Below are positions 7,151 to 45,186 of a DNA stretch of 64,000 bases, in pieces; within the stretch, counting starts at the first letter, position 1; each line of letters starts with the position of its first letter. The DNA is from Chamaelirium japonicum (lineage: Eukaryota > Streptophyta > Magnoliopsida > Liliales > Melanthiaceae). The position numbers were made by a program, and so were the translations under genes. The stretch covers positions 66,529,611 to 66,593,610 of the forward strand of contig OX393553.1 in the NCBI GenBank assembly GCA_947650365.1, given 5' to 3'. The notes under the pieces were generated by a model, which was given only the letters and a program-made list of their open reading frames with translations, made no database searches and was not told the origin of the DNA.

Positions 7151-7165
7151 GATGCTATCGTCAAT

Positions 7166-7774: not shown

Positions 7775-7804
7775 GAGTTATCAGAAGATCTCCCCGACGA
7801 AGAA

Positions 7805-8422: not shown

Positions 8423-8452
8423 TCTCTGAAGTTCTACCACTTCAACAACGAG

Positions 8453-9660: not shown

Positions 9661-9667
9661 GCGACTT

Positions 9668-13047: not shown

Positions 13048-13076
13048 CTGAAGAGCCATGAAAAGAAGCAAGTCAA

Positions 13077-21897: not shown

Positions 21898-21899
21898 AT

Positions 21900-21911
21900 T
21901 GGTATCAGAGC
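21900..21911 (+). other. Primer binding site of C1 (initiator tRNA-Met type)
   Basis: TGGTATCAGAGC, the classic plant Copia complement to tRNA-iMet, starts two bases after the LTR end. Confidence 0.95.
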
Positions 21912-23566
21912 TGCATTAGTGGTATGCGTTTCACGATTTTTTATGAAACCAACATGTGTGCGCATGATGAATGCGTGAAATCATCGAGGTTCTTACGCTT
22001 AGATCATGCATATGTATAGATTGTGCTTGTTCTATTAATCATTCTTGTAGGGCGCCACTATAAAAATCTAGATCTATGTTTTGTGCTTGCTACCGGGGGT
22101 CGGACCCCGAGTTAGCCAATGTCTGGATTTGCTCTCTATGTGTGTGGATATGTAATTGAGCCGTAGATTGGGCGAGTGATGGGGGTTGACCATCCTCGGT
22201 TCCCATGGCCTTTTTCCTAGGTGTGTTTTCTTTTCTTTCTAGGAAATTGTGTACGAGCGAGCACTTGCTCGAAGCGTACTAGACCTTTTTGGTTACAGAT
22301 CGATAAGAGAGAAGTGCCAAAGAAATCCACCATCGGGAGCGTAAGCGGAACCCTGGAGGATGAAGACGATCCGGCAAAGTGTTCGCGAGCGCGACAGAGG
22401 AGCCGGACCGAGGAACCTTGTGAAGAAAGCTAGAGGCCTGCGCTGTGCTAATTAGGTTCAGGGGTCGGACCCTGAACTTAATTCAGTTTGAATGGTTGCT
22501 TTCTTTATTAGTTCTTTATGTTTCATATCGAACCCCGATGAGATAATGTGATTATCAGTTTTCATAGGGACGTCTTTCCCCTCCGGTCCAAGCGATCGTT
22601 TGAGGATAGGATCCCACTAGATGACGCCTATTATTTAATTAACTTTTGATGTTAGTGGGATCCCATCACATATGGTTATGCCACCATTAGGTCAGCACCC
22701 GACTAGTCGGGTGTGCCTATTTGGTCAGCATCGAAATCAAAGATGAGATGGAGATCCATTGAACATCAATTGTCAAATTTATAAGCGAGGCGCCATGACT
22801 AGTGGGAGTCCTTTCCAGTGAGTCTAACTCTAGGATTAGCTCCAAAGCATTAGCGTGATAACCATTTTTGCAGAGCATCGATATTCTCGGAATGTGTAAT
22901 GTGACCCTTGAATGAAGAAATCCACTTGAGGTAGGGACTATGATATTCCGAGAATGATTAATGCTAGGCGAAGGGCTTGAACGCTAGTGGGAGCATGGTG
23001 TGACCATGGTCTAGTATATAGGAGGTCGCTACCTTTGCATTTGCATAAATTTATACTCGCAAAATAACCCTCAAATATATAAGGGATGTAATAGAGGACT
23101 TTTAGAGATCCTCTGGCCTCCACGGCTAATCACTTCATACTCGGGTGGAAGGGCATAACTCAACAACCCCCTCAGGTGAGAGTTGTTTTTTTCTATGCCA
23201 AGCTACTTAGTGATCTCCTTCGGGATATGGCGGTTACGGTGCCTCACATCCTAAGTACATGTGAGGTATTCGTTGCGAAGACAACGGTGATCATGTGGTA
23301 CTGGCCAAAAGATAACCATGGTCCATCAAAGTCCGTAGTTGGCAGATTTGGATAGGGTCAAAGGAAAGACCCGTGTAAGCGGAAGACCTGCACACTGCCC
23401 CCTCGGACAGGTGTAGCCTACTCCGAGATCTTACATACATGGTTAATTAATCCATAGAGATGGCTTCGCTTGAGGGTAGCGTTGACATATGGATATAATT
23501 AGCTTGTTTTAAAAATCCATAAAATAAGTTTTCATGCATTCTCATTATTCAATCTTTTATTTTCAG
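21912..23566 (+). other. Long untranslated leader of C1
   Basis: About 1.65 kb separates the primer site from gag, with no sizeable conserved ORF. It contains two hairpins sharing the core GGGGTCGGACCC (22094-22109 and 22456-22477). It ends in a strong pyrimidine tract and CAG placed directly before the gag ATG (23561-23566), which has the form of a 3' splice site. It may be a spliced or structured leader; the sequence alone does not decide. Confidence 0.6.
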
Positions 23567-24400
23567 ATGACTAAGTTAGACCCCCTGTCCGCTATCCTAA
23601 ATGACCACAAACTTACCGGTCCCAACTATGAGGACTGGAAGCGCAACCTGTACCTAGTCTTAAGGAATGGTAAGCACATGACATCCCTGAATGACCCTGA
23701 GCCGGATTTGCCAGGACCCAATGCCACAGAGGCACAGTTAAAGGCTTTCACTGACTGGAAGGAATCTAATGAAATATGTAAATGCTATATTATAACATCC
23801 TTGCAAACAACTCTGCAGAAGCAGGTCGAGGAGATGCCCGACGCTTCTGACATGATGTTGTATATGAAGGAGATGTTTGAAGGTCACAATCGCGTTACGC
23901 GATACCTTACCATCAAGAAACTCGTCGGCACTAAGATGTCCAATGGAACGCTGGTTTGGGAACACATGATGAAAATGTTTGGGTTCCAGAACAAACTAGC
24001 TACCATGGACATTATGCTAGAAGGCGAGGTGATGACAGACATCTTCCTCTCGTCACTGTCTGGAGCCTTTGAAGGCTTGGTCACCAACTTTAATTTAAAC
24101 AAGTTGGCTATGACAAATGCAGAGCTTCTGGGAGCTCTCCAGGCAGCTGAGGATGGCTTCAAGCAGAAGGGCGAAGCACTTCACATGCAACACAAATCCT
24201 TCAAGAAGTCTGGTAAACCTCAGGGCAAGAAACATAAGAAGAAACCTAAGTCTGCGCCTGTGCAGAACTCTGTTGGGGCCTCTGGGTCTGGAGAATCAAA
24301 GAAACCGGATATGAAGTGTTTCCGGTGTGGCCAGAAGGGTTATTGGAAGAAGGACTGTAAAAAGCCTCAGAATGCTGGTGAAGGTAATCTACAACTCTGA
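23567..24400 (+). CDS. gag of C1
   Basis: I prefer ATG 23567 (MTKLDPLSAILNDHKLTG) over ATG 23534, because the former starts the conserved Copia gag N-terminus LTGPNYEDWKRNL and follows the CAG. The product is 277 residues. The N-terminal two thirds are the UBN2/retrotran_gag-type helical capsid region (EMFEGHNRVTRYL, GEVMTDIFLSSLSGAFE). A basic KKSGKPQGKKHKKKPKS stretch and a zinc-knuckle region starting CFRCGQKGY follow, for RNA binding. The frame looks whole. It would form the cytoplasmic particle. Confidence 0.9.
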   Translation: MTKLDPLSAILNDHKLTGPNYEDWKRNLYLVLRNGKHMTSLNDPEPDLPGPNATEAQLKAFTDWKESNEICKCYIITSLQTTLQKQVEEMPDASDMMLYMKEMFEGHNRVTRYLTIKKLVGTKMSNGTLVWEHMMKMFGFQNKLATMDIMLEGEVMTDIFLSSLSGAFEGLVTNFNLNKLAMTNAELLGALQAAEDGFKQKGEALHMQHKSFKKSGKPQGKKHKKKPKSAPVQNSVGASGSGESKKPDMKCFRCGQKGYWKKDCKKPQNAGEGNLQL

Positions 24401-24448
24401 GTTGTTGAATCATTTCTTTCAAATAATAGTTCTTTTGCTAGTTGGATT

Positions 24449-24817
24449 GTGGATTCAGGATCCACTAACCATGCCTGTAACTCTCTTCAGGGGTTTCGGG
24501 AAAGCAGAAGGTTGCTTGATGGAGAGGTGACCTTGAGCATGGGAATTGAGGCCGTGGCTGCTGCTGAAGCTATTGGAGACGTTAATCTTAGTTTTTCGAA
24601 TAATATGACTTTGACTCTTAGAGATGTCTTTTATGTACCGTCCTTGAGACGTAACTTAATTTCTATTTCTTCTTTAGTTAATGAAGGTTATTTAGTTTAT
24701 TTTGATGCTTCTGGTGTGTCGTTTAAGCTGAATGAAACTTTTATAATAAGAGGAATGGTTCAGAATCATCTCTATATTGTCAGTCCTAAATTTGAAAAAG
24801 ATAACATAATAACTTAA
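24449..24817 (+). pseudogene. Aspartic protease region of C1 pol
   Basis: WIVDSGSTNHACNS gives the D-S-G active site, followed by LRDVFYVPSLRRNLISISSL, the typical Copia protease C-terminal motif. It lies just after gag. In Copia elements it cuts the polyprotein. Confidence 0.88.
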
Positions 24818-24871
24818 GCATTTAATGTTAATTCATCTAAGCGTAAGAAACCTTCAGAGAATTTAACCCAA

Positions 24872-25780
24872 TTGTGGCACTTACGGCTTGGGCATATTGC
24901 CTTAGACAGGATCCATAGGTTGGTGAAGGCCGGGCTTCTGGAAACAGATCCTACGGAGATCCTTCCCACCTGTGAATCTTGTCTGGAAGGCAAGATGACC
25001 AAGAGGGCCTTCAAAGGCAAAGGAGTGAGAGCTACTGAGGTATTGGAGCTAATCCATTCAGATGTATGTGGACCCATGAGCGTCAAGGCGATAGGAGGCC
25101 ATGAGTACTTCATCACTTTTACTGATGATTACTCAAGATATGGTTACATTTACCTTATGCATCGGAAGTCGGAATCCTTTGACATGTTCAAAGAGTTCAG
25201 GGCTGAAGTAGAAAAGCAGACAGGTAAATGTATAAAAACCCTTCGATCTGATCGAGGAGGTGAATACCTATCTGACGAGTTCCTTGGGTATTTGGTGGAG
25301 CATGGGATAACATCCCAGTTAACTGCTCCAGGTACCCCACAACAGAATGGAGTCTCTGAGAGAAGGAATCGAACCTTGTTGGACATGGTTCGAAGCATGA
25401 TGAGTCATGTCTGTTTACCAACGACCTTTAGAGGATATGCCCTTCAGACAGCAGTATATGTTCTGAACCACGTTCCATCTAAATCAGTGCCTCAGACCCC
25501 TAGAGAACAGTGGTCAAGGCAAAAGCCAACACTACAGCATTTCAGAATATGGGGATGTCCTGCACTTGTGCGGGTAGACAAGAGGGAAAAGATGGAGCCA
25601 AAGTCCAAAGCATGTTTGTTTGTAGGATATGCCAAAGAGACTAAAGGTGGACTATTTTATGATCCTGAGGAAAAGAAGGTAATCGTTTCAACGAATGCCA
25701 TTTTCCTAGAACATGATTATATTATGGACTACAAACCTGCTAGTAAGGTAGTTCTGGATAAGCTACTGGGTACTAGATCA
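24872..25780 (+). pseudogene. Integrase region of C1 pol
   Basis: The GAG-pre-integrase zinc region ([13 protein letters not shown], then CESCLEGKM) leads to the core: [32 protein letters not shown] and [19 protein letters not shown], i.e. the DDE series. [16 protein letters not shown] tail follows. Integrase lying before RT is diagnostic for Ty1/Copia. This piece is continuous with the start of RT in one open stretch to about 26401. Confidence 0.92.
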
Positions 25781-25969
25781 GAGAGCGCATCCGAAAGCAT
25801 AGTGGGAGCTGACATCACAGACACTAATATACCAGATACTATAGAACCTATTAATCCTGTAACACAACCATCACCTCGTCACAATGGGAGAAGCATCAGA
25901 GCTCCTGACAGATACTATGGAGAAGCCTTATTGGTTGATCCAGAAGGTCAGGAGGATGACCCACTGAGC

Positions 25970-27535
25970 TACGATGAGGCAGTGGGAGCTTCTGACGGCT
26001 CTGACTGGCAAAAGGCTATGGAGGCAGAAATTGCATCAATGTCCCATAACGCAGTCTGGACTCTTGTTACACCATCATCCAATATTAAACCTATTGGGTG
26101 TAAGTGGGTGTATAAGAAGAAGAGAGAACCCGATGGAACAATTGATACTTATAAAGCTAGATTAGTTGCCAAGGGTTATACCCAGAGAGAAGGAATCGAC
26201 TTTGACAAAACCTTCTCGCCGGTAGCTATGATAAAGTCTATTCGGATCCTCCTATCTATTGCAGCCCATTACAACTGGGAGATCTGGCAAATGGATGTCA
26301 AGACAGCATTCCTTAACGGGAATTTGGAAGAAGACATTTATATGATGCAGCCACCAGGTTTTGAGTCAGAAGGTCAGGAACATCTAGTTTGCAAGTTGTA
26401 AAAGTCTATTTATGGACTAAAGCAAGCATCTAGAAGTTGGAACATCCGTTTTGATCAGGCAATCCAGTCATATGGATTTACTCAAAACGAGGATGAACCA
26501 TGTGTATACAAGAGGAGTGATAAGACTACAGTGGTATATTTGATACTTTACGTAGACGATATTCTACTCATTGAAAATGATGTTGGAACATTGTCAACGG
26601 TAAAGGTCTAGTTGTCAACACAGTTCGATATGCAAGACCTAAGTGAAGCGAGTTATGTTTTGGGGATCAAGGTAACACGTGATCACCAGAACAGGATTTT
26701 CTCGCTGTCACAGGCCACGTATATAGATAAGGTTATGGCTAGGTTTGACATGCAAAACTCCAAGAAGGGTTTTGTGCCATTTAAACATGGCATAAAACTG
26801 TCTAAGGATCAATGTCCTAAGACACCTGAGGAGAGAGCAGAAATGCAGAAGATACCTTATGCTTCGGCATTAGGTAGTCTAATATATGCTATGCATTGTA
26901 CAAGGCCAGATATCTGTTTCGCAGTAGGCATGATGGGTCGGTTTCAGTCGAATCCGGGTCCATATCACTGGACAGCAGTGAAGTGTATACTCAAGTACCT
27001 ACGTAGAACAAGGGACTATAAGTTGGTTTACACTGCACAAGAACTGACGCCGATTGGATACATAGATTCTGACTTTATGTTAGATTTAGAATCCAGAAAA
27101 TCGACATCAGGTTTTGTGTTTATGTTAGGAGGAGCAGCGGTTAGTTGGCAGAGTGTGAAGCAGAAATGCATCGCAGACTCTACCACAGAGGCTGAGTACA
27201 TTGCAGCGTGCGAGGCCGCCAAAGAGGCGGTATGACTCATGAAATTCCTTACGGATTTGGGATACGTACCAGAGGCCCAGTTACCTATTGTGCTTTACTG
27301 CGACAATAGTGGGGCGGTAGCACAAGCTAAGGAGCCAAGACATCACCAAAAGGGGAAGCACATCGAGCGCAAGTTCCACTTGATTCGGCAGTTTCAAAAG
27401 CAAGGGCGAGTAGCGGTGACATAGATTGCATCTACAGATAATGTTGTTGATCCTTTCACAAAGGCAATACCTATCAAGGCATTCGAGCGACATGTGGACG
27501 CGATGGGAGTCAAAATCGTTTTGCTACGCTAGACC
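25970..27535 (+). pseudogene. Reverse transcriptase and RNase H region of C1 pol
   Basis: RT starts near [12 protein letters not shown] and shows [58 protein letters not shown] and the catalytic YVDDI near 26550. RNase H is marked by YKLVYTAQELTPIGYIDSDF, SRKSTSGFVFMLGGAAVSWQ, ADSTTEAEYIAACEAAKEAV and YCDNSGAVAQAKEPRHHQKG. The end lies just before the polypurine tract. It is broken in a few places. Confidence 0.9.
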
Positions 27536-27546
27536 AAGTGGGAGAT
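27536..27546 (+). other. Polypurine tract of C1
   Basis: AAGTGGGAGAT sits directly before the right LTR, as is usual for plant Copia elements. Confidence 0.9.
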
Positions 27547-29682
27547 TGTTAGGATTGATATGTTCTAAGCTTGTAAAACTTTATGTTTTGGTCTAATAAA
27601 GATTGATAGTTATTATTATATAAGATGCATAATGGTATATAACATAGTTATGTGTTCTTTTAAGAACAGAGAGCCATGGTTATATGGTAGTCCACTGAGT
27701 TGAAGACTGAGTGGATTGGTCTCATATAATCTAAATCAGTTCGCAGCTATGATCAGGTTGGTCGCCTCATCATGATAAGATGTTGGCGATGACAGTTCAT
27801 GGGAAGTCTTCACCATGGTCATCACCAGGCACAGTGTCTGTGGCTGAACGGAACTAACACGGTGTACAGATCAGTGAGCAGACACTGGTACGCTAAGCCG
27901 TGTTTCTGCTTAGGGTAAAACGGTCCTAAACCCTGAGAAACCACGTCTGATGGACTAACCAGTTACGTGGTGCTTTGGCGCACCAATGTGTGAGGATCCG
28001 TATGCAGTGATCCAAAACCACGGTGTACTGGGTTACTCGGCTGGCGTTGCATTAGTGTGTCACTCCTGCAGGCCATCCATACCCCTGAAGGGAGGTGCGT
28101 TCCTTGGTATGACTTACACTGTACCAAACCCAGGCCTGGTGGTCATCAGTTTTGACTGTTGATCGGGTTTGATTACTCGACGGGGTAATCAGAGGTACGA
28201 TGTATAGGTCAACCTGGAAGGAACCAAGTCATATGATCATTCGAGTCTGACGGTAGTCTCCACCGCTCGAAGTGAATCATGGCATCAAGTGGAGGGACAG
28301 CGGGTTTACCACTACTAAGCGAAGAGCAGGGGTATGATGGAGAACATAGTAAGTCTGGGTGAATTGGAGTGCAGCCTGCGTCGCACTCTGGGTGGCTACG
28401 CAGGTTAACTCGAGCTCAGAGGATCGATGGTACACTCGGGTAGTGTGTCGATCGAGCTTGAGTTGGAAGCCATGAACCTCGGTCCCTGATGGTTCCACCT
28501 TATCAACATTCTGTACGGTTCTTGAACCATCTCCTCGGAACACCATAAGCACAAGGAGGAAGAAAGAAGTATACGCTCCGTGTGTGCTTGGCACTAGAGC
28601 ACGGTAGATGTGTAACTATATACGAGTACTAAGGGTTATGCCCGAGACTAGTACAGAGGCGCATGTAGTAATCCTTAGCCAGAAGTGAACTTCGCTGCAT
28701 AGGTGCGATGCACCGGGGTATGCTACGAGTTGACTAGTTGACTTTGCTAGAGGCACCCTCCGGTGGCCTCAGTTAATAGTAGGTAACTAGTAGAAATCAC
28801 TTAGGAAATGGCTGTTAGGTATCGCACGCTAGAAATGGTCAAAATGAGGCGTCAGGGCGTTTTGGTAAAAACCTCACTCTGTCGGACCTCACTGTTGGCC
28901 GACCCTAGTAGTGGGACACCTTGCTAGGGTCGGCCCTATGATGTAGGGATGAGAATGCCTCATCTATAGGGCCGGCCATATAGATAGGGATAGGGCTTTG
29001 AAACGGATAAAGTCGAGCCCTAAAAAGTGGGAAAACGGATAAATACAAGGAGAGATAAAAGGGTGAGATTGTAGAGATAATTGTGGGAGGTCTTTATCCC
29101 CTTGGATCCTTATCCAAGGGGGTAGGCCAGCCCTATATAAAGGGGCATATGGGGCTGGTCATATGTGTGGAAAAAACCGAACCCCCCTCCCCTCTTATCT
29201 CTTTAGTTCTCTCCCTAATCCATCTCCCGTTTCCCGCTTGCAACTTCGTCTTCCTCGCGTGGAGTTCTGAAGAAGGAGAATGGTCATTTTTCGGAGGCAC
29301 TCAGAGATCCGAGGGCGACGTTCCGTGCATCGTGTGAGATCGGGTGAACAAGAAGGCAACGTCTCCAATCGTACCATCGGCATCTTCACGAACGATCTTC
29401 CGTCTCCATCGACAAAGAAGACAATTCTCCGCGTTTAAAAGATCCGTACGAAAAGTATGTGTAATCTAATATGTAGATCTAGCGAGTATTATGATTTGCA
29501 TACATGCTAGTTAATCATCACTCTAGATTGCCGTTAGGGTTTTCGATTCACGTGCATACACATGCACATATATGTAGATTAGTTTCTATGAAAGTTTAAA
29601 TCGTGTAACGTGCACCATGAACGGTCTTTCGACCGCAAAATCGTTTCCGCTGCGAGCCTCTACCATGGATTTATTTCCAACA
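27547..29682 (+). repeat. 3' LTR of C1
   Basis: It pairs with 19807-21897. It includes a block of about 40 bp near 28935-28975, where a GGGCCGGCC-like segment is repeated, that the left LTR does not have. It ends TTTCCAACA before the target repeat gtgcg. Confidence 0.95.
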
Positions 29683-29744
29683 GTGCGGGCCTATTTTACG
29701 TGTGTGAATTAGGTTCGACCCGTGGGCTAATTTCAATACCCATA
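29683..29744 (-). repeat. 3' LTR of T2, second part (right of C1)
   Basis: The first five bases are the C1 target duplication. The rest aligns with 44224-44283 of the other T2 LTR (CGGGCCTATTTTACGTGTG..., TTCAATACCC). Together with 17573-19806 it makes an LTR of about 2.29 kb. The T2 polypurine tract follows at about 29745-29757 (minus: TTGAGGGGGCGTT). Confidence 0.92.
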
Positions 29745-29821: not shown

Positions 29822-29837
29822 GGTCTTTATAAGGACC
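29822..29837 (+). promoter_or_regulatory. Candidate antisense promoter box of T2
   Basis: GGTCTTTATAAGGACC lies 78 bp inside the 3' LTR and matches the T1 box (GGTCTATTTAAGGACC on the minus strand at 13929-13914) in length, ends and direction. An ATG (29865) follows about 30 bp downstream, with basic codons GLKKKALARV. It is oriented to drive the + strand antisense ORF. Confidence 0.55.
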
Positions 29838-30890
29838 CCCGTTTCCTTGTTTCTCTTCATTGTTGATGGTTCCCGGCGGCTTGAAGAAGAAAGCTCTTGC
29901 TAGGGTTCCTTGCTTCGCGACGATGACGCGGAGGATGAAGATGGTTACGTCATGGAGCTCGAGAAGGAGGGGAGATCGCCGGATCGCGGAGGGCGGAAGG
30001 TCGCAGGCGAGGTGGTCCCCTTTCTTCTCCTCCTCCTCCTTCTTCTTCTTCTTCTTCCCGGTTCTGGTCCGTGCGTGCGGGAACGGCAGTAGCATAGCGG
30101 CAGCGGCAGCGCGACAGCAGCAGCGGGCGCGGGGGCTGGCGCAACAGCGGTGCACACACGGCAGGGGGCATGGCAAGCGGGCCGGTAGCCGGCGGGGCGC
30201 AGTAACAGCGGCAGCGTCGGTGCGGCGCGGGGGCCGGTGCTGCGATGCGCGCGTGGCGGGCCCGGAGGCACAACGCGGTGGTCGGCGCGGCAGGGTGGTT
30301 GGCGACCGCGGTGGGGTGTGCGCGCGTGCGGGGCACGGTGGCCGGCGCGGCGGGCGCGGCGCGCGACGGGCTGGTGCACGCGGTGGCCGGAGCTGCGGCG
30401 CACGCGCGCGCGTGCGGGGCATGGTGGCCGGCACGACGCGCGGCGGGCTGGTGGCCGGTGCGGTGGGTGGCTGGCTGCCGGTGCGGCTGGCGGGCGCGGT
30501 GGCCGGCGTGGGTCGTGGCAAGGCGGCTGGCGACCGGTATGGCTGGCGGGCGCGGTGGCCGGTGGGGGCCACGGCAGGGTGGCTGACGATCGGTGCGGCT
30601 GTCGGGCGTGGTGGCCGGCGTGGGCAGAGGCCGATAGCACCCCCCCTCCCTGCGGGTTTAAACAGGAGAGAGGGGGTCGCAGTTTTTTGTCGTGGGCCCC
30701 CTCTTGCTTCTTTATTTTTGCAGATGGGGCCGGCGGCTTTTTAGCCGAGGCCCCCTCTCGTTTCTTCATTTTGGCATTCAGGGTCTGCGGCCTTTTAGCC
30801 GAGGCTTCGTTTTTTTTTGTGCTTTTCTCTGTATTCGACTTGTACTTTTCTTGCTATCTGACTTGGGCTTTGTCTCCCTCCTTTTTTTCA
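29838..30890 (+). other. T2 antisense leader: GC-rich low-complexity region, probable 5' exon and intron
   Basis: 30020-30620 is made of GGCGCGG/GGTGGCCGGC imperfect repeats, which explains the long shadow ORFs on both strands. 30620-30890 is T-rich and ends in a strong acceptor (TTTTTTTTCAG, AG at 30890-30891). The T1 region has an aligned acceptor at 13048 (minus). I think most of this is leader and intron of the antisense transcript and not coding. Confidence 0.5.
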
Positions 30891-30891
30891 G

Positions 30892-33800
30892 GTCTCGTCG
30901 TTACGAGAGTTTTCCAAGTTCCGGCTGGATCGTCGATGCGGTCTCCCACGGGAGAACGCATCTTCGTTTCCCTTTTGCGCAAGTCCTCGACCCCCGTGCT
31001 TCGAGACAGGAGGCCAAACTGTCAGTACTTCAGCTTTCGACGCATGAGCGAGTTTGTGAGGATGGTGTGGCCGACGGCTCTTGTAGTGTGTTGAAACTTG
31101 GCGAGTGTATCCTCACTGACGAAGGATCTTCACGGCAGGTTGTTCGGCCAAGTTTGGGGTTGTTGCTTTGAAGATATGCTCCTATCATACACGGTGGGGT
31201 GTGGAGATTCAACCGCGTGGAGATGTCACATATCTGGGAGGTTTCCGGGACTGGATGCGAGAGCTGTCTAGCGCGTTGGAGGTAGAGCCAGGGATGGAGT
31301 GTTTGGCAAGGTTCATGGAGCCAGCTTGTTGGGAGTACAGCCGACCAGACGGTATGTACCGGGCTCTTTGCAAGCAGTGGTGCCCTGAAACCAACACCTT
31401 TTTGACCAGAGCAGGTGAAATCGGAATCACCCTTCGTGACATGCACATTGTCTCCGGATGCCTAGAAGTTCGGAGCTATTATCAAGAGGAGGTTCCTTCT
31501 TTGGAGGTCTTGACGGACCCAGATGAGTCTCCTAGCTCCTGCCTCTTGCTTTTTAAGGCATATGCTATTATAGCGGTGCGCAAGCGGTCAGACCGAGTAC
31601 TTCACTCGGATTGGGTGGACTTCTGGTTTCGAGGAGAGTATCGTCAAGTTCCTCCTTTGAATCACCCGATGTGGAAGTATGCATCGTCGAAGAGACTGGC
31701 ACCTGGCACTTTTCGACGGCCTATTGAATCTTTAAGAAAAGAATGGTGCTCCATGGCTATGGCGCAGCGCCCCTGGGAGGTATTAGGACTGGAGGAATGT
31801 AGTGACGTTTGGCGTGCTGCTTACTGGTCAGCGGGGTTGGTACTTTTTCTTTGCCGCTTTGCTCTGCCCTGGAATGGGGATGTGATACGTCCTGGGACCT
31901 TCCTTGCAGCTGCTCAGATGGTGAACGGAGAATTTCTTAACCTGGCGCCGGCGATCCTTTGCTCGTTGTACCAAGGGCTTAGTGGAACATACTGGAGTCT
32001 ATCGAGTGTGGATAATGCAAGAGGGGAAGTAGGCTGGGCCAGTTCCTTTTGCCCCCTGTATTACCTTTATGGTTGGATTGGGCTCCACTTCCCGAAGGGG
32101 ATCTTTGCAGCGCGTGGACCTTCGACCTCGGTGCCCTTCCTTCCTTGTGTAGGAGGTGTGATGAATGCTTATCATGCGTGGGAGCGTCCGAGGCCCAGTG
32201 CTCGGGAGTGGTTGAGACGTATGGGCCCTTCTGACTTTGACTTTGTATCAGAGAATGCATTTGCACCTTCTACAAGATCCTTGGTATGTGATGGGCCAGA
32301 GATGACCGAGCACTTGTACTGGAGTATAGTGAGTTGCAGGCCCGGGTATCTCGTCTGGCATCGTGGGGATGCAGTGGAGGTGGCACGGTACTCTCCCCAC
32401 CGGTTTGCTCGACAGCAGGGTTTCCGCCAAGAGTTGCCGGGGACTCCTTTGCGCATGCAGTCACGTTACACTCCGCAGGAAGCGTACCGCCTCTGGGGAG
32501 CCCTTTATGACCGATTTACTGGGTGTATTTTCTCACCGAGGATTAAGCCAGGCGGAAAGGATGCTGCAACTCCTGAGTATCGCTGCTGGGTCAATGAGTC
32601 AGTGCTTCCCTTCTTGGCTAGCTTTCCACTGGACGTCCTTGCTAGCAGTGAGCGGGCTGACTTTTCTTTTGACCTTTTGGCGGGGTCAGAGGATCGCCGT
32701 CTTTGATCCAAGGAGCGACGATCGGAGAGGCCTCACGACGATCGAGAAAGTACTTCCCGAGCTTCTCCTTCTGTGCAAGAGGTCGAGATGGCTTCGTCTA
32801 CCAAGGTTCAGAGTCTTCTTGAGACTCTGACTTCTTGGAGTGGACGTGCTTTTCCCAAGAAAAGGAAGTTGGATTTCTTGTGTGAGGCAGCTTTGGATGA
32901 CGCTAATGAGGCAGCGCCAGCTCAAGAGGGAGAGCCAGGGCTTTTTACCGATGGGGTAATCCCTCTTTCTGGGGTAGCTTCATCGGGCGTCGCAGGTATC
33001 TCTCGCTTCTAGTTGCTCATGGATTTCTTTGCTTGTATTCTTATTTCGTTGGCTGAGTTGTTTAACTCTCATTTTGGTAGGTTCTGCTGGATTGGACTGC
33101 GAGTCTGCCCCCAACGGGGTTAGGCAAGAATGCTCTCCCATCAGAGCGACGTTGATCGAGAGTGGCGGGCTGGATGTACCCTGAGATAACTTGGAGCTTT
33201 TGGGAGCGTGTGGAGCAGATTTTGCCGGCAGTGCTGTCAACCTGGACGATATTGACATGTGGCAGTTGGGCTTTGGGGAGGAGGATGAAGTATCCAGTGT
33301 AGGGAGAGAACAGACTCCTCTGGTCAAACCCGGTATTCTGGCAGAGATTACCCCCACGGTCGTTTCGTCGGAAGGTTTGCCTGTAGCTTCTCCTTCAGCT
33401 CCGGTAGTACCGCTGACTATTATCACGACGATGGTTCAAGAGGCGGTTCCTGTGCTTGAGCCTTCACGACCGGAGCCTACCCCGTCGGTGCACTCAGGGG
33501 CTGATAAGCAAAAGTGTAGCTCACGAGGCCTTCTTTCTGCGCTTCTTTTAGAGAGCTGTCGGAAGTATATTCAGGCAACGCTCGCACCTTTTCAGGGTCT
33601 TGATGCTTTGAATGACTGGTGGGTCCTTGAGGGACCTGAGTTTTGCAAGAGTTTGGCGGCTTTCCAGGTAGATGGCTCTTTGTTTGAGGCATGGATGCAT
33701 GCTTTCTTGGCGGACAGTGAAGCTCATCGCTTGAAATGGGCTTTGATGTAAGATGACCTTCCCCTGATACTAGCAAAAGCCGAGGACGAGGAGCGTCGTC

Positions 33801-34060
33801 TGGGAGAGCAGCATGCACTTGCTACTGCGAGCCTTGTTCGGGCGCGGAAGAAGCTAGAGGCTGCTCACGCATCTTTCGAGAAAGCTGAGACGATCGAGAA
33901 ATCTTTTGGAGTAGATCTCGCAAAGCAACGTATTGAGCTGGCGACGCATCGGGAGCGGATAGCTTCTCGATCTTCGGAGCTGCAGCGCATGGAGGTTATT
34001 GGCGGCGAGCTGCTCCAACGTCTTAAAGAGTTTAACTCGCTTTACTTGCAGTGTTACATT
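30892..34060 (+). CDS. Antisense PMD-type gene of T2
   Basis: It is transcribed opposite to gag-pol, between the polypurine tract and pol. The longest open part is 31168-32706 (512 residues). Its PMD-like core begins with LCKQWCPETNTFLTRAGEIG and TLRDMHIVSGCLEVRSYYQE, continues with SDWVDFWFRGEYR and VIRPGTFLAAAQM, and reaches LYYLYGWIGLHFPKGIF. Downstream blocks hold KKRKLDF (a possible nuclear signal), an acidic segment (LLGACGADFAGSAVNLDDID), SCRKYIQATLAPFQ and a heptad-rich coiled coil to about 34060. An 85-bp candidate intron lies at 32996-33080. The core looks whole; flanking blocks have a few breaks. Both T1 and T2 keep the same blocks in the same order. Function in the element is unknown. 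Confidence 0.75.
32996..33080 (+). other. Candidate 85-bp intron in the T2 antisense gene
   Basis: CGCAG|GTATCT opens and TTTTGGTAG|GTTC closes it, with a T-rich interior. The preceding exon ends VIPLSGVASSGVA, which matches the exon end before the T1 intron. Intron sizes are 80 (T1), 85 (T2) and 86 bp (T3). Confidence 0.6.
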
Positions 34061-34199
34061 TTCTTTTCTTTCTTGTCATTTCTGCTGGATAGACTCGTAG
34101 TTTTGCTTTCTTTCGTTTGATGATAACTTAATATCATGCATCTATTTTCTGGACTTATCTTCTGGAATGGTAGTGTCTGGATGTTCTCTTTTTTTTTGT

Positions 34200-34258
34200 T
34201 TGGACTGAACCTTTACAGGCTGCCTACGTACCCTACTGAAAGGGATCAAGTCACACGT
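34200..34258 (-). other. Conserved post-pol hairpin and TACGTAGGCAGCCT box of T2
   Basis: On the minus strand, GATCCCT pairs with AGGG (34244-34241 with 34234-34231) and TACGTAGGCAGCCT follows. Both this box and a downstream GGTTCAGTCC motif are shared with T1 (9663-9722). Compared with T1 the stem has a compensated pair. It lies between the integrase stop and the 3' end of the antisense gene. Confidence 0.6.
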
Positions 34259-34299
34259 AGTTCCCTCTTTTTTTTTTTGCAAGGAGTGTAGCCCTGCTT

Positions 34300-35410
34300 T
34301 TAGGCGTAGTACCTTTTGAGATACTTGCCATTGATGGGGCCGAGTGTAAGCCCTTCTGGCGTGGTGAGAAGATATGCACCGTTGGAGTAGACCTCTTTGA
34401 CAGTGTGCGGTCCATCCCATTTGGCGTCGAACTTCTTTCCTCCTCGATGCGAAAGAATGATGGGGCGTTTGACTGCCAGCACCAGTTCTCCTATTTGGAA
34501 GGATCAAGGGCGAATTCTTTTGTTGAAGGCTCGCATTAGCCTAGCTTGATAGCATTCCAATCGCTGCTGAGCTTCGAGGCGCTTTTCATCCAGTGCTTCC
34601 AATTCTGCTAGGCGAAGTTGGGTGTTGTCGCCGTTGACAAGGCCTTCTTGAATGGCTATCCTGAGTGACGGGATCTGGAGCTCGAGCGGGAGGACAGCTT
34701 CTACTCCGTATACCAGTGAGTACAGAATTGCCTGTGTTGGTGTGCGAAAAGAGGTGCGATATGCCCATAGCGCTTCGCCCATGCATTCATGCCAGTCTTT
34801 CTTTGATTTTGAGACGACTTTCTCCAAAAGTTTGCAGAGTGTTTTGTTGAAAGCTTCAGCTAGACCGTTTTCTGAGGCATTGTACATGGTTGAACACCTT
34901 TGCTTGATATCGAACTTGGCACAGAATTGGCTGACAGCGGCGTTCTTGAACTGCTTCCCGTTGTCCGTGACGATATATCGAGGGACACCGTACCGGAAGA
35001 TGATGTCGTTCTGGATGAAGCTGATGACAGAGTGTCTGGTAACTTCTCGTAATGGTACTGCCTCAGCCCACTTAGAAAAGTAGTCTGTTGCCGCCAGAAT
35101 GTAAAGATACTGCTTGGATGACTTGGGTAGCGGACCGACAATGTCGAGTCCCCATCCATCGAAGGGCCATGGCGCGATGGTTGGATGCAAAGGTTCCGGA
35201 GACTGACGGATGTAGTCGCCATGCAACTGGCAAGCGTGACATTTTTTTGCAAACTCGAGGGAGTCCTTGATCATAGTGGGCTAGTAATACTCCATCCGCC
35301 TGATGCGAAAGTAAAGCTTTGGACCAGACTGATGTGAACCACAGATCCCGGCATGGACTTCTTCTAGTGCTGTTTTCGCTTCTTGTTTTGCAAGACACCT
35401 CAGGAGCGTG
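34300..35410 (-). pseudogene. Integrase region of T2
   Basis: The catalytic core is open over 35274-34504: FAKKCHACQLHGDYI, WGLDIVGPLPKSSKQ, YFSKWAEAVPL, YIVTDNGKQFKN and NGLAEAFNKTLCKLLEK give the DDE series. The GPY/F-like tail (FDAKWDGPHTVKEVYSNGAY) ends LKRYYA at about 34303. No chromodomain is visible. The core is nearly identical in length and motifs to T1 integrase. The region has about two or three breaks. Confidence 0.9.
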
Positions 35411-35775
35411 CCATCGTAGCTTCAACGGTACAACTCGTTATTGAAGTGGAAGAATTTCAGAGACCGCCGGTGAATGTCGACCTTATGCTTTGGATCTTCA
35501 GGGAGCTTCTCGTGGACAAGAAAGTCTATGAATGGTTATCTCCAATCTAGCTCGTCGGTCACGAGAACGTGTACTGCATTGACTTGGTCCGGGATTCCCA
35601 TAGGGGGGTCCTCCTCGGTGATCACCATCCTCTTGCAAATAGGGATGATGAGCTGGCTTTTTTCTGGGAATGAAAGTGTAGCCGCTAAATTTGCGAGTGC
35701 ATCAGCCTACTGATTGAGGTTTCTGGGGACATGCTGGATTGAAGCAGTTTTGAGCGTACCAAGGAGTTTCAGAGC

Positions 35776-36600
35776 TCACAGATATAACGGCACGAGGTCT
35801 TCTTTGTTAACTTCGTATGCTCCCAATATTTGCTGAATGACGAGTTGAGAGTTGCCGAAAATTTTGAGTCCTTGAAGTTTCATATCATTGGCGAGTTCGA
35901 GGCCAATAATCAAGGCTTGATATTCTGCCCTTTTGTTGGAGCATGGTTCTGATAGTAGAAATGAGAAAGGGAGTATTTCGTCGTTTGACATGACGAAGAT
36001 AACTCCTGCTCCTGCCACGTCTTGCCTTGCCGCGCCGTCGAAGAACATTTTCCAAAAAGGGGCGATGTCGATGCAGAATACTTCTTCGTTTGGGAGATCT
36101 TCCGATAGTTCCCATTCTGCTGGAAGGGAGTATTCTGCCAGGAAGGCCGCGAGAGCTTGACCTTTGACCGCTTTACGAGGGACGAAGGTGATATCGAACT
36201 CGAGGAGGAGTAAAGCCCACTTGGCCAAACGTCCGGAGAGCACTGGCCTTGACATAATATATTTGAGCGGGTCAGCTTTTGAGATAAGCCTGATGGCGTG
36301 AGCTAACATGTAGTGTCGCAGCTTCTTTGTAGCGAAGATGAGTGCAAGACAGACCTTCTCAATCGGGGAGTAGTTTAGCTCCACGCCGATGAGAGTGCGA
36401 CTTAAATAGTAACATGTTGTTTCCTTGCCTAGCTCGTTGTCTTGAGCCAGGAGTGCCCCCAAGGACTGTTCAGTCTGTTCCTGGGCACTGATGTAAAGGA
36501 CCAATGGTTTTCCTTGAACTGGTGCTGTCAGAACTGGAGGCTTGAGTAAGTAATTCCTGATGTTCTGGAGGGCTTCCTGACAAGCTTCATCCCACTTGAA
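35776..36600 (-). pseudogene. RNase H and archaeal-type RNase H of T2
   Basis: The first RNase H is seen as LVLYISAQEQ...LGALLAQ, YYLSRTLIGVELNYSPIEK and FDITFVPRKAVKGQALAAFL. The second follows with MFFDGAARQDVAGAGVIFV, RAEYQALIIGLELANDM and GNSQLVIQQILGAYEVN. An open stretch covers 36504-35776. The tandem pair defines the Tat clade. A linker toward integrase continues to about 35410. Confidence 0.88.
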
Positions 36601-36606
36601 TGGTGC

Positions 36607-37272
36607 TCATTTCTTCATGAGGCGACTGAAGGGCCTACATTTTCCAGCTAAGTTGGCGATAAATCTCCTGATATATGCCAGATGGCCCTGGAGACCTCTG
36701 AGGTCTCTTACTGTTTTTGGGATTGGCATATTGAGAATAGCATCTATTTTGGATTGATTTATCTCGATGCCTCGATGCCGTACGACAAAGCCGAGAAACT
36801 TACCCGAGGAGACTCCAAATGTGCATTTAAGCGGGTTCATGCGGAGCTGATATCTCCGAAGCCGTTTGAAGATCAGCTCGAGGTCTTGAAGATGTGCTGC
36901 CTTTTGTCTTGATTTTAGCATGAGGTCATCGACGTAGCATTCCACATTCTGATGAAGAATATCGTCGAAATTTTTTTGCATGGCTCGTTGGTAGGTAGCT
37001 CCTGTATTTTTCAAGCCGAAAGGCATGACTTTGTAGCAGTAGATCCCTTTTGGCGTGTGGAATGCCGCAAGCTCTTCATCTTTGGGCGCCATCCGGATCT
37101 GGTTGTAGCCTGAGGATCCATCCATGAAGGTTAGTGCTGCATGGCCTGTTGTCGCATCCACCATCAGTTCTGTGATTGGCAGTGGGAAGTCATCTTTGGG
37201 GCATGCATTGTTTAAGTCCCTGAAGTCCACGCATACTCTGATATGACCGTTCTTCTTCTTAACTGGGACCAC
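36607..37272 (-). pseudogene. Reverse transcriptase of T2
   Basis: Open over 221 residues: HIRVCVDFRDLNNACPKDDF, LTFMDGSSGYNQIRMAPKDE, FGLKNTGATYQRAMQ, the catalytic CYVDDLML, and the thumb region LRMNPLKCTFGVSSGKFLGF then DLRGLQGHLAYIRRFIANLA. This is the best preserved RT in the window and the best segment for placing T1/T2 in a Tat tree. Confidence 0.93.
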
Positions 37273-37302
37273 GCTGGAGATCCATGTTGGATATTTAACT
37301 TC

Positions 37303-39639
37303 TCAGATAAAGCCGACTTCAATGAGCTTGTTGACTTCGCCTTCTATTTGCGGTACTAGTTCTGGCCGGTAGCGTCTTTGTCCTTGCTTGATGGCGCTAG
37401 CTCCATGTCTGACAGCAAGCTGGTATACTGCAATCTTGGGGTCAAGTCCGGGCATTTCCTTGTAGGACCATGCGAAGACATCTCTGTATTCTTGGAGTAA
37501 CTTGATGTATGCGGCCTCCTCTTCGGGAGTCAGGAGTGCACTTACGAATGTAGGCCGAGGATCCTCCTGTGTTCCCAAGTTGATTTCCTTCAAATCGTCG
37601 ATGGTAGATTGCCCCCCTTCTTCGAGGACTGGCAGGGCATCTGGCAATTCGTCGTCCGAAGTAGAAGTTGCGTCGATTGGAGTGTCAGAAATTATGATAT
37701 GATTAACAGAGACCAGAATGATATTGGTGACGTCGTCAGTTTGGAAGAATGATATGGGTGGGAGGGTGGGAACGTTATTTCTCACCTTAGTAGGTGACTT
37801 TCCCAAACGGTCGAATACTGACCTTCGCTTTACTTGTCTGACTGGCCTAAGTCTTTTGAATACTGATACGGGATTTTGACTTGCCTGGTTTTTGATGCTC
37901 TTCTTTTGCTTCTGAGGTATGGTCCAATGTCGAGCTCGATATCGCCTTCTTTTGGCGCCCTTTATAGCAGGATGAACGACATTGGTGGAGCGTGCATCGG
38001 AGGCTAACGATCCCTCTTCCACTTCATCCACCAACTTTACCTCAATGTAGTTAGAGGTGAATGTCTTCTCTCCTATTATCTTGATGACCATCGGGGTTTG
38101 ACGGGAGCCGATGCCTTGCCGATTTGGTAGGATCTGCTCGCCGCCTTGGAGTAAGTAGGCTTGAGTCTTAGTCATCCCGTGTGGTATTGGAGCTGGCAGG
38201 AGCGTACTCATATGTGTGGCACTGTCTTTGTCATAGCCAGCTTTGAACAGCAGCTTGGCGGCATTTTGCCTCCAGCTTTCTTTTGGCTTGAATATGAGTT
38301 GGCTGGATTTGAAGAAATCGATAGGTTTTGGCGGACTTGAAGCCTGCCCCAGGCTAGGTAGTGGCAGTGTCATCTCTTGCAGAGTGATGACATTAGCCTC
38401 CGATAGCGGCTGAACCATTTCTTTTGGCGGGGCAAAAGATGGTCCTTTATGTTTGCGCAGCCACTGAGGCATGTGGCGCAGAACTGGCATAGTTTGGACA
38501 GGCAACGGAGTATGCTGCATGGATCTTGGCTTGGAGCTGATGCGCATCCTTCGTCTTGGCACTAGCACTTCTTTGACTTCGTGTATCGCCTTAGATGGTG
38601 GCACTGGATTTGGAGTTAGTAGAGTTTCATCCTGCTCCATCCTTTTAGCTTTCTGAGTTCGAGGAGCTTTAGCTGGAAGGACTTCTGCAACGAGGTCCTT
38701 TGCTTGGTAAAATTTGGCATCAGCGAGGTGTGCTTCGGCCTCATTGAATGGTTTGTCATATGCAATGATGCATTTCTCCAGGCCCTCCTCATAGTACTTG
38801 AGGCATTGGTGCCAGGTGAAAACTACGACACCGTTTTCATATAGCCACGGTCTTCCTAGCAAGAGGTGATATGATGTCTGACAGTCAATGACATGGAAGA
38901 GAACTGTCGTGTCAAGCTGGCTGATGGAGAGTTTTAGACGAATGATTCCTAAGGTGGACTGTCCGCCTTGGTTGAACCCTTGAATGACCAACTGGCTTTG
39001 TGAAAGTTGGTCGGTGGTAATACCGAGCTGCCACATTGTTTGGATGGGCATGATATTGACAGCGGAGCCGCAATCCAACAGGATTCGATTTACCGGCTTC
39101 TCGTTGATGTATCCCGAGACATAGACAGGTCGATTGTGCAGTCGTGCTCCGAGCTGCAGGTCTTTGTCTGAGAAAGTTATTGCCGCGTTGCAGGAGACAA
39201 TAGTTTCATCTTCCTTGGCGTCTTTCTTCTTTCTTTTGTAGCTGTCTGGATTTGTCAAGGCCTCGGCCATTGCTAGGCGAGCCTTCTTTGGGAGGTGTAG
39301 TGCTTCTATGTGTGGCAAGTGTAAGATTGTCTCATCGTAAGCAGCAGCACTATCTTTGTCGGAATTATCCTCCTCGTCGTCGGTGTTGCTTTCTTTAGAA
39401 TACTTGATCCTATCTTCTTCTTCCGGCACGATGTGGATCTCGACCATGCAACAGGAGGCTTCGTGTTGCTGATCAGCTGGGAGGAAGTAATCGGGGAAGA
39501 ATTCTTGTAACGTTGCCGGTTCTGGAGGGTTTTGCAGGAGAAGATCATCTGGATCTGCTGGCGGTACTTTGAATGTCTTCCTTTCTGGAGCCTTACTTTT
39601 CTTGTTGTAAGTTCTTCGTTCAGGAAACTTTCTCGTCAC
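37303..39639 (-). pseudogene. Protease and linker region of T2 pol
   Basis: A 778-residue open stretch. The retropepsin motif ILLDCGSAVNIMP is at about residues 187-199, with GFNQGGQSTLGIIRLKL and LLGRPWLYENGVVVF after it. A long linker of about 350 residues (lysine-, proline- and serine-rich, with SVFKRLRPVRQVKRRSVFDR) leads to the RT approach DVFAWSYKEMPGLDPKIAVY and VPQIEGEVNKLIEVGFI. It matches T1 4320-6600 block by block. Confidence 0.9.
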
Positions 39640-40131
39640 CCGATCTAGCTTGCGACTCCTAGCCGTCCATGGTCTTCGCCTGCGAGGCAGTATGACCCAT
39701 GCGTCTTCATCAGTGGATTCTCCCTCACCAAGGTGAAGGTCTGGAGTGGCAGCTGTAGGTTCTTCATAGGTCGGGGAGACCTGCTCCTCTGGGAACCTTG
39801 GTGGCTCGCCTTCTGACTCCCAGCCGGTGGGTTTGATTTCTTCTATTGAGACAGGCGAAGGTTTGGAGTAAAGGACATAGTAGTCGAATTTACTTGAGGG
39901 CTGGCCTAACAGACCGACCTCCGGGTCTTCTTGCTTGTACCTTGTTTAGAGAATTTATTAGGATATGGCTTTGTTCGGGCGAGATGCCGATATAGACGAT
40001 GGTTGCCCCCAGGGTTGTGATGTTTCTTCCTCAGCGAGCATAGGAGCGTGCCGTTGTCGCCTTGAGACTTTCCGTTGTGGAGCTAACTTCATAATTGGTC
40101 TCTGGCGATTGATGCGCAACTTGAGCCTTTT

Positions 40132-42045: not shown

Positions 42046-44283
42046 TGTGTGCGCGGAAAAAGATACGGGTCATCTTTATTGCGAATCACACGAGATTACA
42101 GAGTGGCCGGGACCCGGGGGCTCGGGTGTGGGGAGTCCGGGTGCGGTGAATATTTGATCAGGAGATTGTGGGAGAGATCCTCTGGAGGGTCCCTTTGATC
42201 CGTGTCTCCACGTGGTATGCGTGCGAGAGCTCTGAAGGGGTTGCCCAGGACAGAGGTCTTTATAGGGTGAGGGTTTCTTGAGAGGCTAAGGAATATCGGC
42301 CGTTGATTTTGTCCCGTCCGTGCTTCGCGCTTTCTCGGCTAAGGAGGTTTTGGGCTTCGTTCCTCGGTCTTCGTGTCTTCCTCGACCCTTGCTAGACCTC
42401 GGCGTCCTTGATCGTCGGTTCGCGGCGTCGATCGTGGGCGTCGGCTTTGGCTTTGGCTTTCGGCTTTGGTGTTGCTTTGGCGTGGCTCTGGCTTTTGCTT
42501 TGCTTTGGCTGTTGTGCTTGAACGTAGACGGGTAGAGACTTGCGATGCTTTAGTTCTTCTGGACTTCACGTCGTATCGGCTAGAATGTGCGGTGCTTTGC
42601 TCGTGCGTAGTTGCTTGGCTTTGGCACGTGCGTTGCTTTAGCGCGGGCTTTACCGATGCGTTTGCTTTGGCTTCTTGCGTTGGCTTTGGCTTTAGCTTTG
42701 ACTCGATCTTCTTCTCGAATGGCGATGCCTACTTCTTCAGGGCTTCTTTATTCTTCTGGCTTCCTCGACGGTTGTGTCGTCGCCTGGCTTCTTCTCCGGG
42801 CGTATTTGGCTTGATCGGAGTTGAAGACTTCTTGTGGAGATGGTGGGTGTAGCACCGATCTCTATGCGACGGTTGTAGCGTCGGCTTTTGTTGATGAAGA
42901 AGGCAGGGGTAGCACCGATCTCCGCACGACGGTTGTAGCGTCGGCTTTTTGTTGACGAAGATGGCAGGGGTAGCACCGGTCTCCGTGCGACGGTTGTAGC
43001 GTCGGCTTTTGTTGATGAAGACGGCGGGGGTAGCACCGATCTCCGTGCGACTGTTGTAGCGTCGGCTTTTGTTGATGAAAACGGTGGGGGTAGCACTGGT
43101 TTCAGCACGACGGTTGTAGCGTCGGCTTTTTATTGATGAAGACGGCAGAGGTAGCACCGGCTTCAGGCCTTCTTCTCCCGGCTTTCTTCTTCGTGCAAGG
43201 AGTTGATGCCTTTGTTGAAGACGACGGGTGTTGTCGGCTTCGATCTTCTTCTCCGGCCTTTGCTTATGGCGTCTTTGGAGCTGATGAAGATTGTTGGAGC
43301 AGTCGGGGTGATGACGACTTCGGGTCTTCTTCTCCAAGCTTTCTTCTTTGTGTGAGGAGTCGAAGCTTTGATCTTCGAGTGCAAGGTCTTCACGTTGATG
43401 AGGACTTAAAGGGCCAAGGATTCCCGTAGGATGTGCTTGCCGTGCCTCGTGAATCCTTCGGTCTTCGAGCGTTGGAGCTTCTCTTGCGGAGCTCTTTCAT
43501 CTTCGGCTTTTTTGGACCTCTTTCGCCTTCCCGCACCCCTTCTATTTATAGGTAAAGAGGGCGGTTGGGGGAGATATGGCTGAAATCTTTTGGTTTCATC
43601 CAATATCTCCCCCCATAACCATCAAGATATTGTTCCTTTATTCGGGGAAACAAACTCGATCCCCTCCTTTTTAGTTGGGGTAGTTACGGGCTAGATGTGA
43701 CTCGATCTTTAAAGATTGAGTTGTTATTTTTTGCACTTTTGGATCGGATGGCGACACAACGTCATCTTGTCCGTTGGATCGAGGGATCGTCGCGGATCTA
43801 CGGCTGCGTAGACGTCCACGCCACCTCCCCCCGCATCGAGGCGGTTTTGATTTTTTTTTTCTTTTCTTTTTCTTTTTTCTTTCTTTTCTTTTCCTTTATG
43901 GCCGGCCCCACCTCCCCATGGGGAGGGGGGCACGGTTTTCAAGAAGGGGGGGCCGGTGGGCCCCCCTCTTTGTGTTCGAGTTGCGGGTCCAGTGAGACCC
44001 GTTTGCTTTGAGTTGGGCCACAGCGCGCGAATTGAGTTTGCACGCGGGCCGAGTTCGCATACGGGCCCAATTTCGCATGCGGGCCGTTGTGTATGTGGGT
44101 CGTTGTGTGTGGGCCGAGTTGTGCATGTGGGCCGTTGTGTGTGGGCCGAGTTGCGCATGTGGGCCGTTGTGTGCGGGCCCAAGTTTCGTGTGCGGGTCGG
44201 GTTCGACCCGAAGGCCGTTGGGTGCGGGCCTATTTTACGTGTGCGAATTGGGTTCGACCCGTGGGCTAATTTCAATGCCCACA
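42046..44283 (-). repeat. 5' LTR of T2
   Basis: 2238 bp, uninterrupted. Plus orientation starts TGTGTGCGCGG and ends TTCAATGCCCACA. It carries the 60-bp array (42849-43215), the minus-strand TATA box (43550-43542), a T/C tract (43852-43895) and GGGCCGTTGTGTGTG-type repeats (44030-44180). The segment GGGTGCGGGCC at 44221 is the empty site of the C1 insertion. Confidence 0.95.
42849..43215. repeat. 60-bp tandem array in the T2 5' LTR
   Basis: Anchors at 42849, 42909, 42970, 43030, 43090 and 43151 give the same period and copy number as in the other T2 LTR. Confidence 0.92.
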
Positions 44284-45186
44284 AGTATTTTTATGTGGAA
44301 ACCCCGAAGAGAAAAAAACGATGCCTAGACGAACCCAAAGGTGTAAGCGATCCATTAGTAAGGTTAGGATACAAGAGTCCAGAAAGTTCCTCGCAAGATC
44401 GACATGCAATTCACAATCCAATGCTCGAACAAATCCATGAACCGGCGTTGCTCGACTCAATGCTCCATAGCCGTTAATGTAATTCCCACAACTACGTACA
44501 CTGGCCTCCTAAGCATTGCTTGCTTCAATGCCCGAAGTACTTGATATCCACGAGGTGCCTATCACCCTAACACGAAGGGTGGACCCTAGGATTCCACACC
44601 ACACAAGAAACACAATGGCAAGAACACTATAGGGATTTCTCACTACCTTCAAGAGCAACCCATATTCAATGGGGATTTGAATAATGAATTGTATAAGAAG
44701 AATAAAAACAGTAGGGAAACAGGTTTGGGGTCAAACACCAAGAACATCCATCACAATATGGACGGGGAATGATACCCAAATCAAGATTTGAATGGGTCAA
44801 ATCGAACATATCGAGCACAAATGTCCTCAAAGGATTGAGGAGTGATTCACACTTGCACGAGATGAATCCCTTTATTCAAAAGAAGGGAAGAAAAAGCTTC
44901 CAAAATAGAGATTTTTGCATGGAGGCACAAATCTTTCTCCCAAAGTATCCCATCAACCTTACCCCAATGGTCAAAGGTAAGGATTATATAGGTGGTGTGC
45001 TCAGGCATTTTCGGCCATCAGATTTGGCTATCCGATGGATGAGAATCAGCCAAAATAGCTAAAAAAAACCCTCATTATCCTGAAGGAGTCCAGACTCTCA
45101 ACTGTAGCCAAGGTCCCAACCCCAGTCGGGACCTCAGACTCGGGTTGGCACCCCTTGAACAGTGAACGATCGGGACTCGCACGATA
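44284..45186. other. Unassigned non-coding DNA right of T2
   Basis: It continues the sequence interrupted at 17572 after the agtat target. ATGTGGAAACCCCGAAG near 44292 resembles the TATGGAAACCCTTGCGG-type segment of the C2 LTR (52136), so this may be a worn LTR piece, but I cannot show its ends. No ORF is supported. Confidence 0.4.

Follow-up and report, generated by a model that had tools for sequence, protein, structure and literature searches.

In the stretch of DNA analysed here, 64,000 nucleotides of the Chamaelirium japonicum genome (the window), the PMD-encoding region lying opposite to gag-pol in two sister LTR elements, T1 and T2, looks from its letters like a gene with a promoter-like region and three exons, more than an open reading frame, and its antisense PMD frame is under purifying selection. 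We consider it likely that the element bears a spliced antisense accessory PMD gene, with its own promoter and three exons, the protein of which may act on transcription or silencing. The first-pass annotation had described an antisense gene; its PMD type was recognised rightly, and the multi-exon layout and the promoter region were missed.

The gag-pol genes are read on the plus strand in T1 and on the minus strand in T2. Element T2 (17573–44283, minus) is complete in outline, with LTRs, a target duplication and pol. Its left, 3' LTR (17573–19806 plus 29683–29744) and its right, 5' LTR (42046–44283) form a pair with 93.5% identity by self-BLAST, and direct reading of the ends showed the 5-bp repeat AGTAT on both sides. 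The 3' LTR is interrupted by a nested LTR element (19807–29682, listed without strand) flanked by GTGCG, whose own LTR pair (19799–21895 and 27539–29680) is also 93.5% identical by self-BLAST, with the junctions read. The pol region of T2 (34504–36504, minus), which is convergent with the antisense gene, showed Pfam matches to RT_RNaseH and then RVT_3 in one ORF (RNase H, 35776–36504) and to rve in the next (integrase, 34504–35274); we read the RVT_3 domain as the archaeal-type RNase H (aRH). T2 has the features expected of Tat Ty3/gypsy elements, namely a second RNase H placed after the first and ahead of integrase, as well as LTRs with a 5-bp target duplication; the 5' end of T1 lies beyond the window. 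This order of domains agrees with the one given for angiosperm Tat lineages in the accessible text of PMC6317226. The integrase of T1 (8612–9379, plus) is 86% identical to that of T2, and the earlier assignment of both to sister Tat-type elements was borne out by these features. In a search of the 1.52 Gb genome, an integrase on the opposite strand behind the antisense gene was also found in all three copies for which longer flanks were taken (L039 to L041, corresponding to L013, L016, and L018).

The presence of PMD was analysed with hmmscan. The profile search of the T2 segment against PF10536 that had been proposed beforehand was positive, the open frame at 31168–32706 (plus) giving E 1.9e-17 and 63.9 bits, and a piece of T1 (11923–12642, minus) gave E 7.6e-10 and 38.9 bits, both above the curated Pfam cut-off of 34.9 bits; the identification of the gene as PMD-type was thus correct. 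The relatives L042 (72.1 bits) and L013 (59.0 bits) also exceeded this value. The matches do not extend over the whole profile, good similarity being confined to about its first half (best stretch at positions 17–162 for T2 and 19–158 for the T1 piece, of 347), with a second, weaker stretch in T2, L042, and L013. Between T2 and T1, identity was 61% and 58% in two pieces of the PMD part and 43% in the third-exon part. The exon 3 tail of the T1-family copy matched coiled-coil-type profiles, all of them under their cut-offs, and the exon lengths, added across separate copies, sum to a protein of about 1,070 residues. A sequence search for PMD among solved structures found none, with six weak unrelated matches (best E 0.037). 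The strongest PMD locus of the genome, L001, matches the full profile with 334.7 bits and is taken for a host PMD gene.

Comparison of family copies revealed how the putative gene is organised. The annotation had placed the starts at 30892 in T2 and 13047 in T1. Both positions fall exactly on conserved splice-acceptor-like sites, conservation among copies beginning abruptly at 30892, at a pyrimidine tract and AG; the gene itself would start further upstream. A second conserved stretch lies about 900–1,100 nt upstream of 30892, next to the border of the 3' LTR, and bears the TATA-like sequence TCTTTATAAGG (29824–29834, plus), located by alignment of family copies some 80 nt inside that border and kept in most T2-family copies aligned and also in T1. 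Some 90 nt past it, an ATG starts a basic reading frame, 29 codons plus 2 nt long, that ends in AG|GT in phase 2, the predicted exon 1 (29923–30011, plus). Exon 1 was located in 25 of 30 copies and has equal length in 23; three of the 25 carry a stop at one common place (one of them with a second stop), and another has one near the end.

Predicted intron 1 (30012–30891, plus) is hypervariable, GC-rich and repetitive, and conservation collapses within it. Its donor reads GT in 24 of the 26 copies in which it was found (the other two lack GT) and its acceptor AG in all 29 copies having the site, the stretch being absent from L030; the phase at the acceptor fits that of the exon 1 donor. Exon 2 (30892–32995, plus) would hold the N-terminal block and PMD. 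It is followed by predicted intron 2 (32996–33080, plus), of 85 nt, in phase 1 within a Gly codon. Among the T2-family copies, GT and AG bound this intron in 30 of 30, none of the 30 lacks it, and its length ranges from 83 to 93 nt (85 nt in 22 of 30) and is no multiple of three in 28 of 30. Inspection by eye showed an in-frame stop inside it in most copies. As intron 2 thus combines a stop with a length that breaks the frame, and yet exon 3 is constrained in its own frame, these data favour the splicing model. Exon 3 (33081–34048, plus) would encode an acidic block, the SCR.YI..TLAPFQ block and a coiled coil, and its stop maps to T2 position 34046 in nine of the 23 copies read. The copy in T2 is itself broken: its frame is interrupted after the N-terminal block, before the PMD core is reached, and exon 3 soon runs into an in-frame stop, at 33182.

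The homologous antisense gene of T1 (9850–13773, minus), also a broken copy, has the corresponding TATA (GGTCTATTTAAGGACC, 13929–13914, minus, placed by homology to the T2 box), ATG, donor and acceptor, and both introns with their phases are common to T1 and T2. Its predicted parts are exon 1 at 13773–13682, intron 1 at 13681–13048, exon 2 at 13047–10889, intron 2 at 10888–10809 and exon 3 from 10808, with an approximate end, all on the minus strand. The PMD part of T1 is split over several frames, and its exon 1 has a stop absent from L042. The same ordered blocks had been noticed opposite pol in both elements, and their places and order proved correct. An intron at the place of intron 2 was seen by eye in T1, L042, L044, and L045, the acceptor of L044 being broken (AA). 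In L042 (reverse strand, 86–3649), the exon 2 frame is open through all of intron 1, giving 1,188 codons. This open frame differs from that of exon 1; it would allow an unspliced start in L042, which counts against the model.

The analysis of selection in the T2 family was based on the best 30 copies by protein score, T2 included, among 84 places listed of 3,642 candidates, a choice that favours intact copies. Among the 29 copies other than T2, pN/pS in the PMD frame was 0.209 (bootstrap 0.172–0.250) versus 1.21 (0.99–1.51) in both shifted frames, at a pS of 0.18. Exon 3 gave 0.371 versus 0.85 and 0.84 in the shifted frames (29 copies), and exon 1 gave 0.38 versus 0.75 and 0.91 (n = 23); both lie outside the search query and are therefore largely free of the bias of picking by protein score. 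The short end of exon 2 (32707–32994) likewise gave 0.38 versus 0.87 and 1.00 (29 copies). Against this, the comparison of T2 itself with the 29 copies over 32707–32994 gave 0.77 in frame, the two shifted frames giving 0.74 and 0.52. One reverse-strand frame also showed low ratios (0.29 in the PMD part, 0.43 in exon 3) because third positions coincide, but it contains 452 and 96 stops, respectively, in the 30 copies. Over all 30 copies, N/S per site in the PMD part fell from 0.50 for singletons to 0.27 for changes found in two or three copies and 0.09 for those in four or more, with a Fisher p of 4.8e-15 for the drop from 0.50 to 0.09, and in exon 3 it fell from 0.57 to 0.33 and 0.26. This decrease with sharing points to a gene selected in the active lineage and drifting after insertion. 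Low nonsynonymous change in the antisense frame across family copies, the outcome that the annotation had named beforehand as support for its proposal, was found in the T2 family, which bears out past selection on the antisense protein.

It was found in the T1 family too, where four copies besides T1 were compared (L042 to L045). In exon 2, three pairs among L042–L044 gave pN/pS of 0.17–0.19, their longest pieces including end codons of the intron, and L042 against L045 gave 0.14 and 0.37 in two pieces, the latter of 146 codons; four of the five pieces thus lie at 0.14–0.19. Exon 3 gave 0.20–0.27 in the L042–L044 pairs and 0.45 for L042 against L045, and nine pieces involving the intron 1 stretch gave 0.53–0.86. 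Between families (L042 and L043 against L011, L013, L016, and L018), where pS was 0.67–0.81 overall, exon 2 gave 0.32–0.35, with pS near saturation at 0.75–0.80, exon 3 gave 0.47–0.60, and a further 117-codon piece, lying outside the gene, gave 0.51. The T1 family also presented a sign of recent activity. Of the 150 T1-family places scored, among 2,956 candidates, 82 had one and the same score for the PMD piece, 485.4 bits, with no stop, and these 82 places are spread over contigs C1 to C10. Such uniform scores suggest that the peptides are identical or nearly so, and hence that a very young T1 subfamily arose in a recent burst while its antisense frame was open.

As a separate observation, synonymous divergence between T1 and T2 differed along the elements. 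In the antisense gene (9700–13200 against 30800–34200), three main-frame pieces of more than 90 codons showed a pS of 0.74–0.81, and in pol (4100–9700 against 34200–39800), eight such pieces showed 0.55–0.70. Either exchange of modules or extra constraint on pol would fit the higher value in the antisense gene.

Taking the frame, the intron phases, the splice-site letters and the purifying selection as observed, we infer the following working of the system. An accessory protein gene lying antisense to gag-pol, in the region from pol to the 3' LTR, would have a TATA promoter of its own next to the border of that LTR and be transcribed by RNA polymerase II, and its transcript would be spliced in the nucleus. 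The three exons would encode a basic N-terminus, PMD and a coiled-coil tail. Within the nucleus the protein would act in trans, its most probable target being transcription or silencing of the element, perhaps through the pathway of host PMD proteins. A tie to host silencing by way of MAIN/MAIL1 had been suggested in the annotation as well, where it was put forward tentatively. Since reverse transcription uses genomic RNA of the other sense, the orientation implies that the introns would not be spliced out of it and would persist.

The basic N-terminus and the coiled-coil-like tail could also belong to a structural or integration cofactor, serving nuclear import or guiding the pre-integration complex to chromatin, and unrelated to host PMD proteins, and roles of this kind are suggested for antisense ORFs in the available text of the review PMC7264820. 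We regard this as possible, though we lean against it, as PMD points instead to a domain of host type, that of silencing and transcription factors. An RNA role, also proposed for antisense aORFs generally in that review as far as its accessible text goes, would have the antisense RNA and not the protein matter, pairing with the genomic RNA and tuning dsRNA/siRNA silencing of the element. This role predicts no frame, whereas the constraint observed tracks codon position in one frame, and by itself we hold it to be improbable; RNA and protein roles could coexist. That the frame is a relic, captured once and conserved only through young, closely related copies, would agree with the broken state of both window copies and seems very unlikely, because the low ratio among copies was obtained at a pS of 0.18, that of exon 2 between families stays low near saturation, shared changes are far more synonymous than singletons, and N/S is unequal across frames. 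Finally, recent capture of a host PMD gene by one family, which the gene-like structure with introns might suggest, deserves hardly any credence, given that L001 is only 26% identical to T2 over 96 residues, that the gene is common to both families and that, according to the accessible text of PMC5418596, PMD-A clades across angiosperms are confined to Gypsy elements.

Our preferred reading of a spliced accessory gene has several consequences. ORF-based surveys of antisense genes in plant retrotransposons would see two or three separate ORFs and miss the start of such a gene. A spliced and selected antisense gene would explain the several kilobases kept beyond pol in large elements of this kind, and intron 1 offers a reason for the hypervariable stretch by the 3' LTR. 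The exact junctions given above can be used for checking antisense RNA data. Should the PMD protein act on PMD factors of the host, we would have a direct example of an element that co-opts a host silencing domain.

PMD-bearing plant Gypsy elements are reportedly the subject of work by Steinbauerova et al. in 2011. Both accessory genes in antisense orientation and Gypsy elements with PMD have been published before; what seems to be added here is detail on the predicted splicing layout and the measurement of selection. As far as the available text of these sources goes, PMD-A clades are encoded by Gypsy elements only (Ikeda et al. 2017, PMC5418596) and PMD is present in 57% of Ogre elements (Neumann et al. 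2019, PMC6317226). There, as in T1 and T2, PF10536 is encoded by a Tat-type Ty3/gypsy element; the accessible parts of both accounts give no introns, promoter or measure of selection for that gene. A review (Vicient and Casacuberta 2020, PMC7264820) deals with antisense ORFs located from pol to the 3' LTR, and the portions available describe gene 23 of Grande as having its own promoter and a nuclear protein. According to the accessible text of Vicient (2025, PMC11963269), all Retand clusters have antisense coding regions, 97% of them with Transposase_28. Grande gene 23, RIRE2 and Retand resemble T1 and T2 in place, antisense orientation, repeats between pol and LTR and a suspected nuclear role (PMC7264820 and PMC11963269, available text), and the TATA-like sequence and coiled-coil-like tail of the T1/T2 gene would correspond to the promoter reported for Grande and the Smc (coiled-coil-like) matches reported for some of these genes. 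In contrast to Retand, with Transposase_28 as its usual domain in the text available, the gene of T1 and T2 has PMD, its relatives gave no Transposase_28 match, and it is predicted to have three exons. The Grande, RIRE2 and Retand genes are described as ORFs, and the word "intron" occurs zero times in the accessible text of PMC7264820 and PMC11963269. Likewise, no report of introns in such antisense genes was found in the literature searched on introns and splicing, which covered few subscription papers and is weak evidence of novelty.

Among host proteins, MAIN and MAIL1 are PMD-C proteins that go together with PP7L, and they have the PMD family in common with the T1/T2 gene (PMC7156037, available text). 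The PMD of T1 and T2 differs from the host one in being element-borne, in having a coiled coil attached and in its low identity to L001. HTLV-type retroviruses also have a protein gene opposite to gag-pol with a promoter on the 3' LTR side, according to the accessible text of PMC7264820 and PMC11963269; unlike T1 and T2, they belong to an unrelated host kingdom.

A third element in the window, T3, has an antisense gene (59307–62366, plus) with a weak match to Transposase_28 (PF04195, E 1.1e-4, 22.8 bits, under the cut-off of 26.2), and its integrase lies at 63972–63220 (minus). Transposase_28 matches are frequent in the genome (at least 137), and five such loci (L046 to L050) were compared together with T3. 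In L046 and L047, the integrase is opposite to the ORF and 38–39% identical to that of T2, and the T3 integrase shows the same identity to it; this distance from Transposase_28-bearing elements speaks against Retand for T1 and T2. In T3, L046, and L049, GT and AG bound an intron-like gap ahead of the C-terminal part, the donor being lost in L047 and the acceptor in L050; L048 yielded no ORF. We read the gap of L046 as a phase-1 intron in a Gly codon, as in the PMD-type gene, a short likeness that may be due to chance. It would be rather unlikely, as a broader scheme, that Tat-type elements ancestrally carry an intron-bearing antisense gene, with an N-terminal domain specific to the lineage (PMD, or Transposase_28 in the T3 type), a common layout with the phase-1 Gly-codon intron before the C-terminal part, an orientation guarding the introns from loss by retrotransposition, a hypervariable region by the 3' LTR equal to intron 1, and a PMD version interfering with PMD-based silencing of the host. 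Five proteins from exons 2 and 3 of the PMD-type relatives gave no match to Transposase_28 at E values up to 10. Homology of exon 2 with Transposase_28-type genes was also rejected on profile comparison, in which ten PMD-type sequences, five of them kept by the program, were set against ORFs from five of the six Transposase_28-type sources; no relation appeared (probability 0.13%, with shallow alignments).

In the interval separating the ends of the antisense gene and pol, a block of some 60 nt reading GGACTGAACC ... GGCTGCCTACGTACCC ... GGGATCAAGTC ... CGTAGTTC or CGCAGTTC was noticed at 34198–34260 (plus) and about 9735–9665 (minus). No match to it was found in the literature searched. It is kept in T1, T2, L040, and L041 and was not found in that form in L039. 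An RNA structure was discarded for this block, as a covariation test found no pair with changes on both sides, and no Rfam family reached the gathering threshold in the window. The core of the block occurs twice in the window versus 0.03 occurrences expected with up to two mismatches. Elsewhere in the window, tandemly repeated units of about 23 and 118 nt form arrays at 45135–46006 and 58029–59001.
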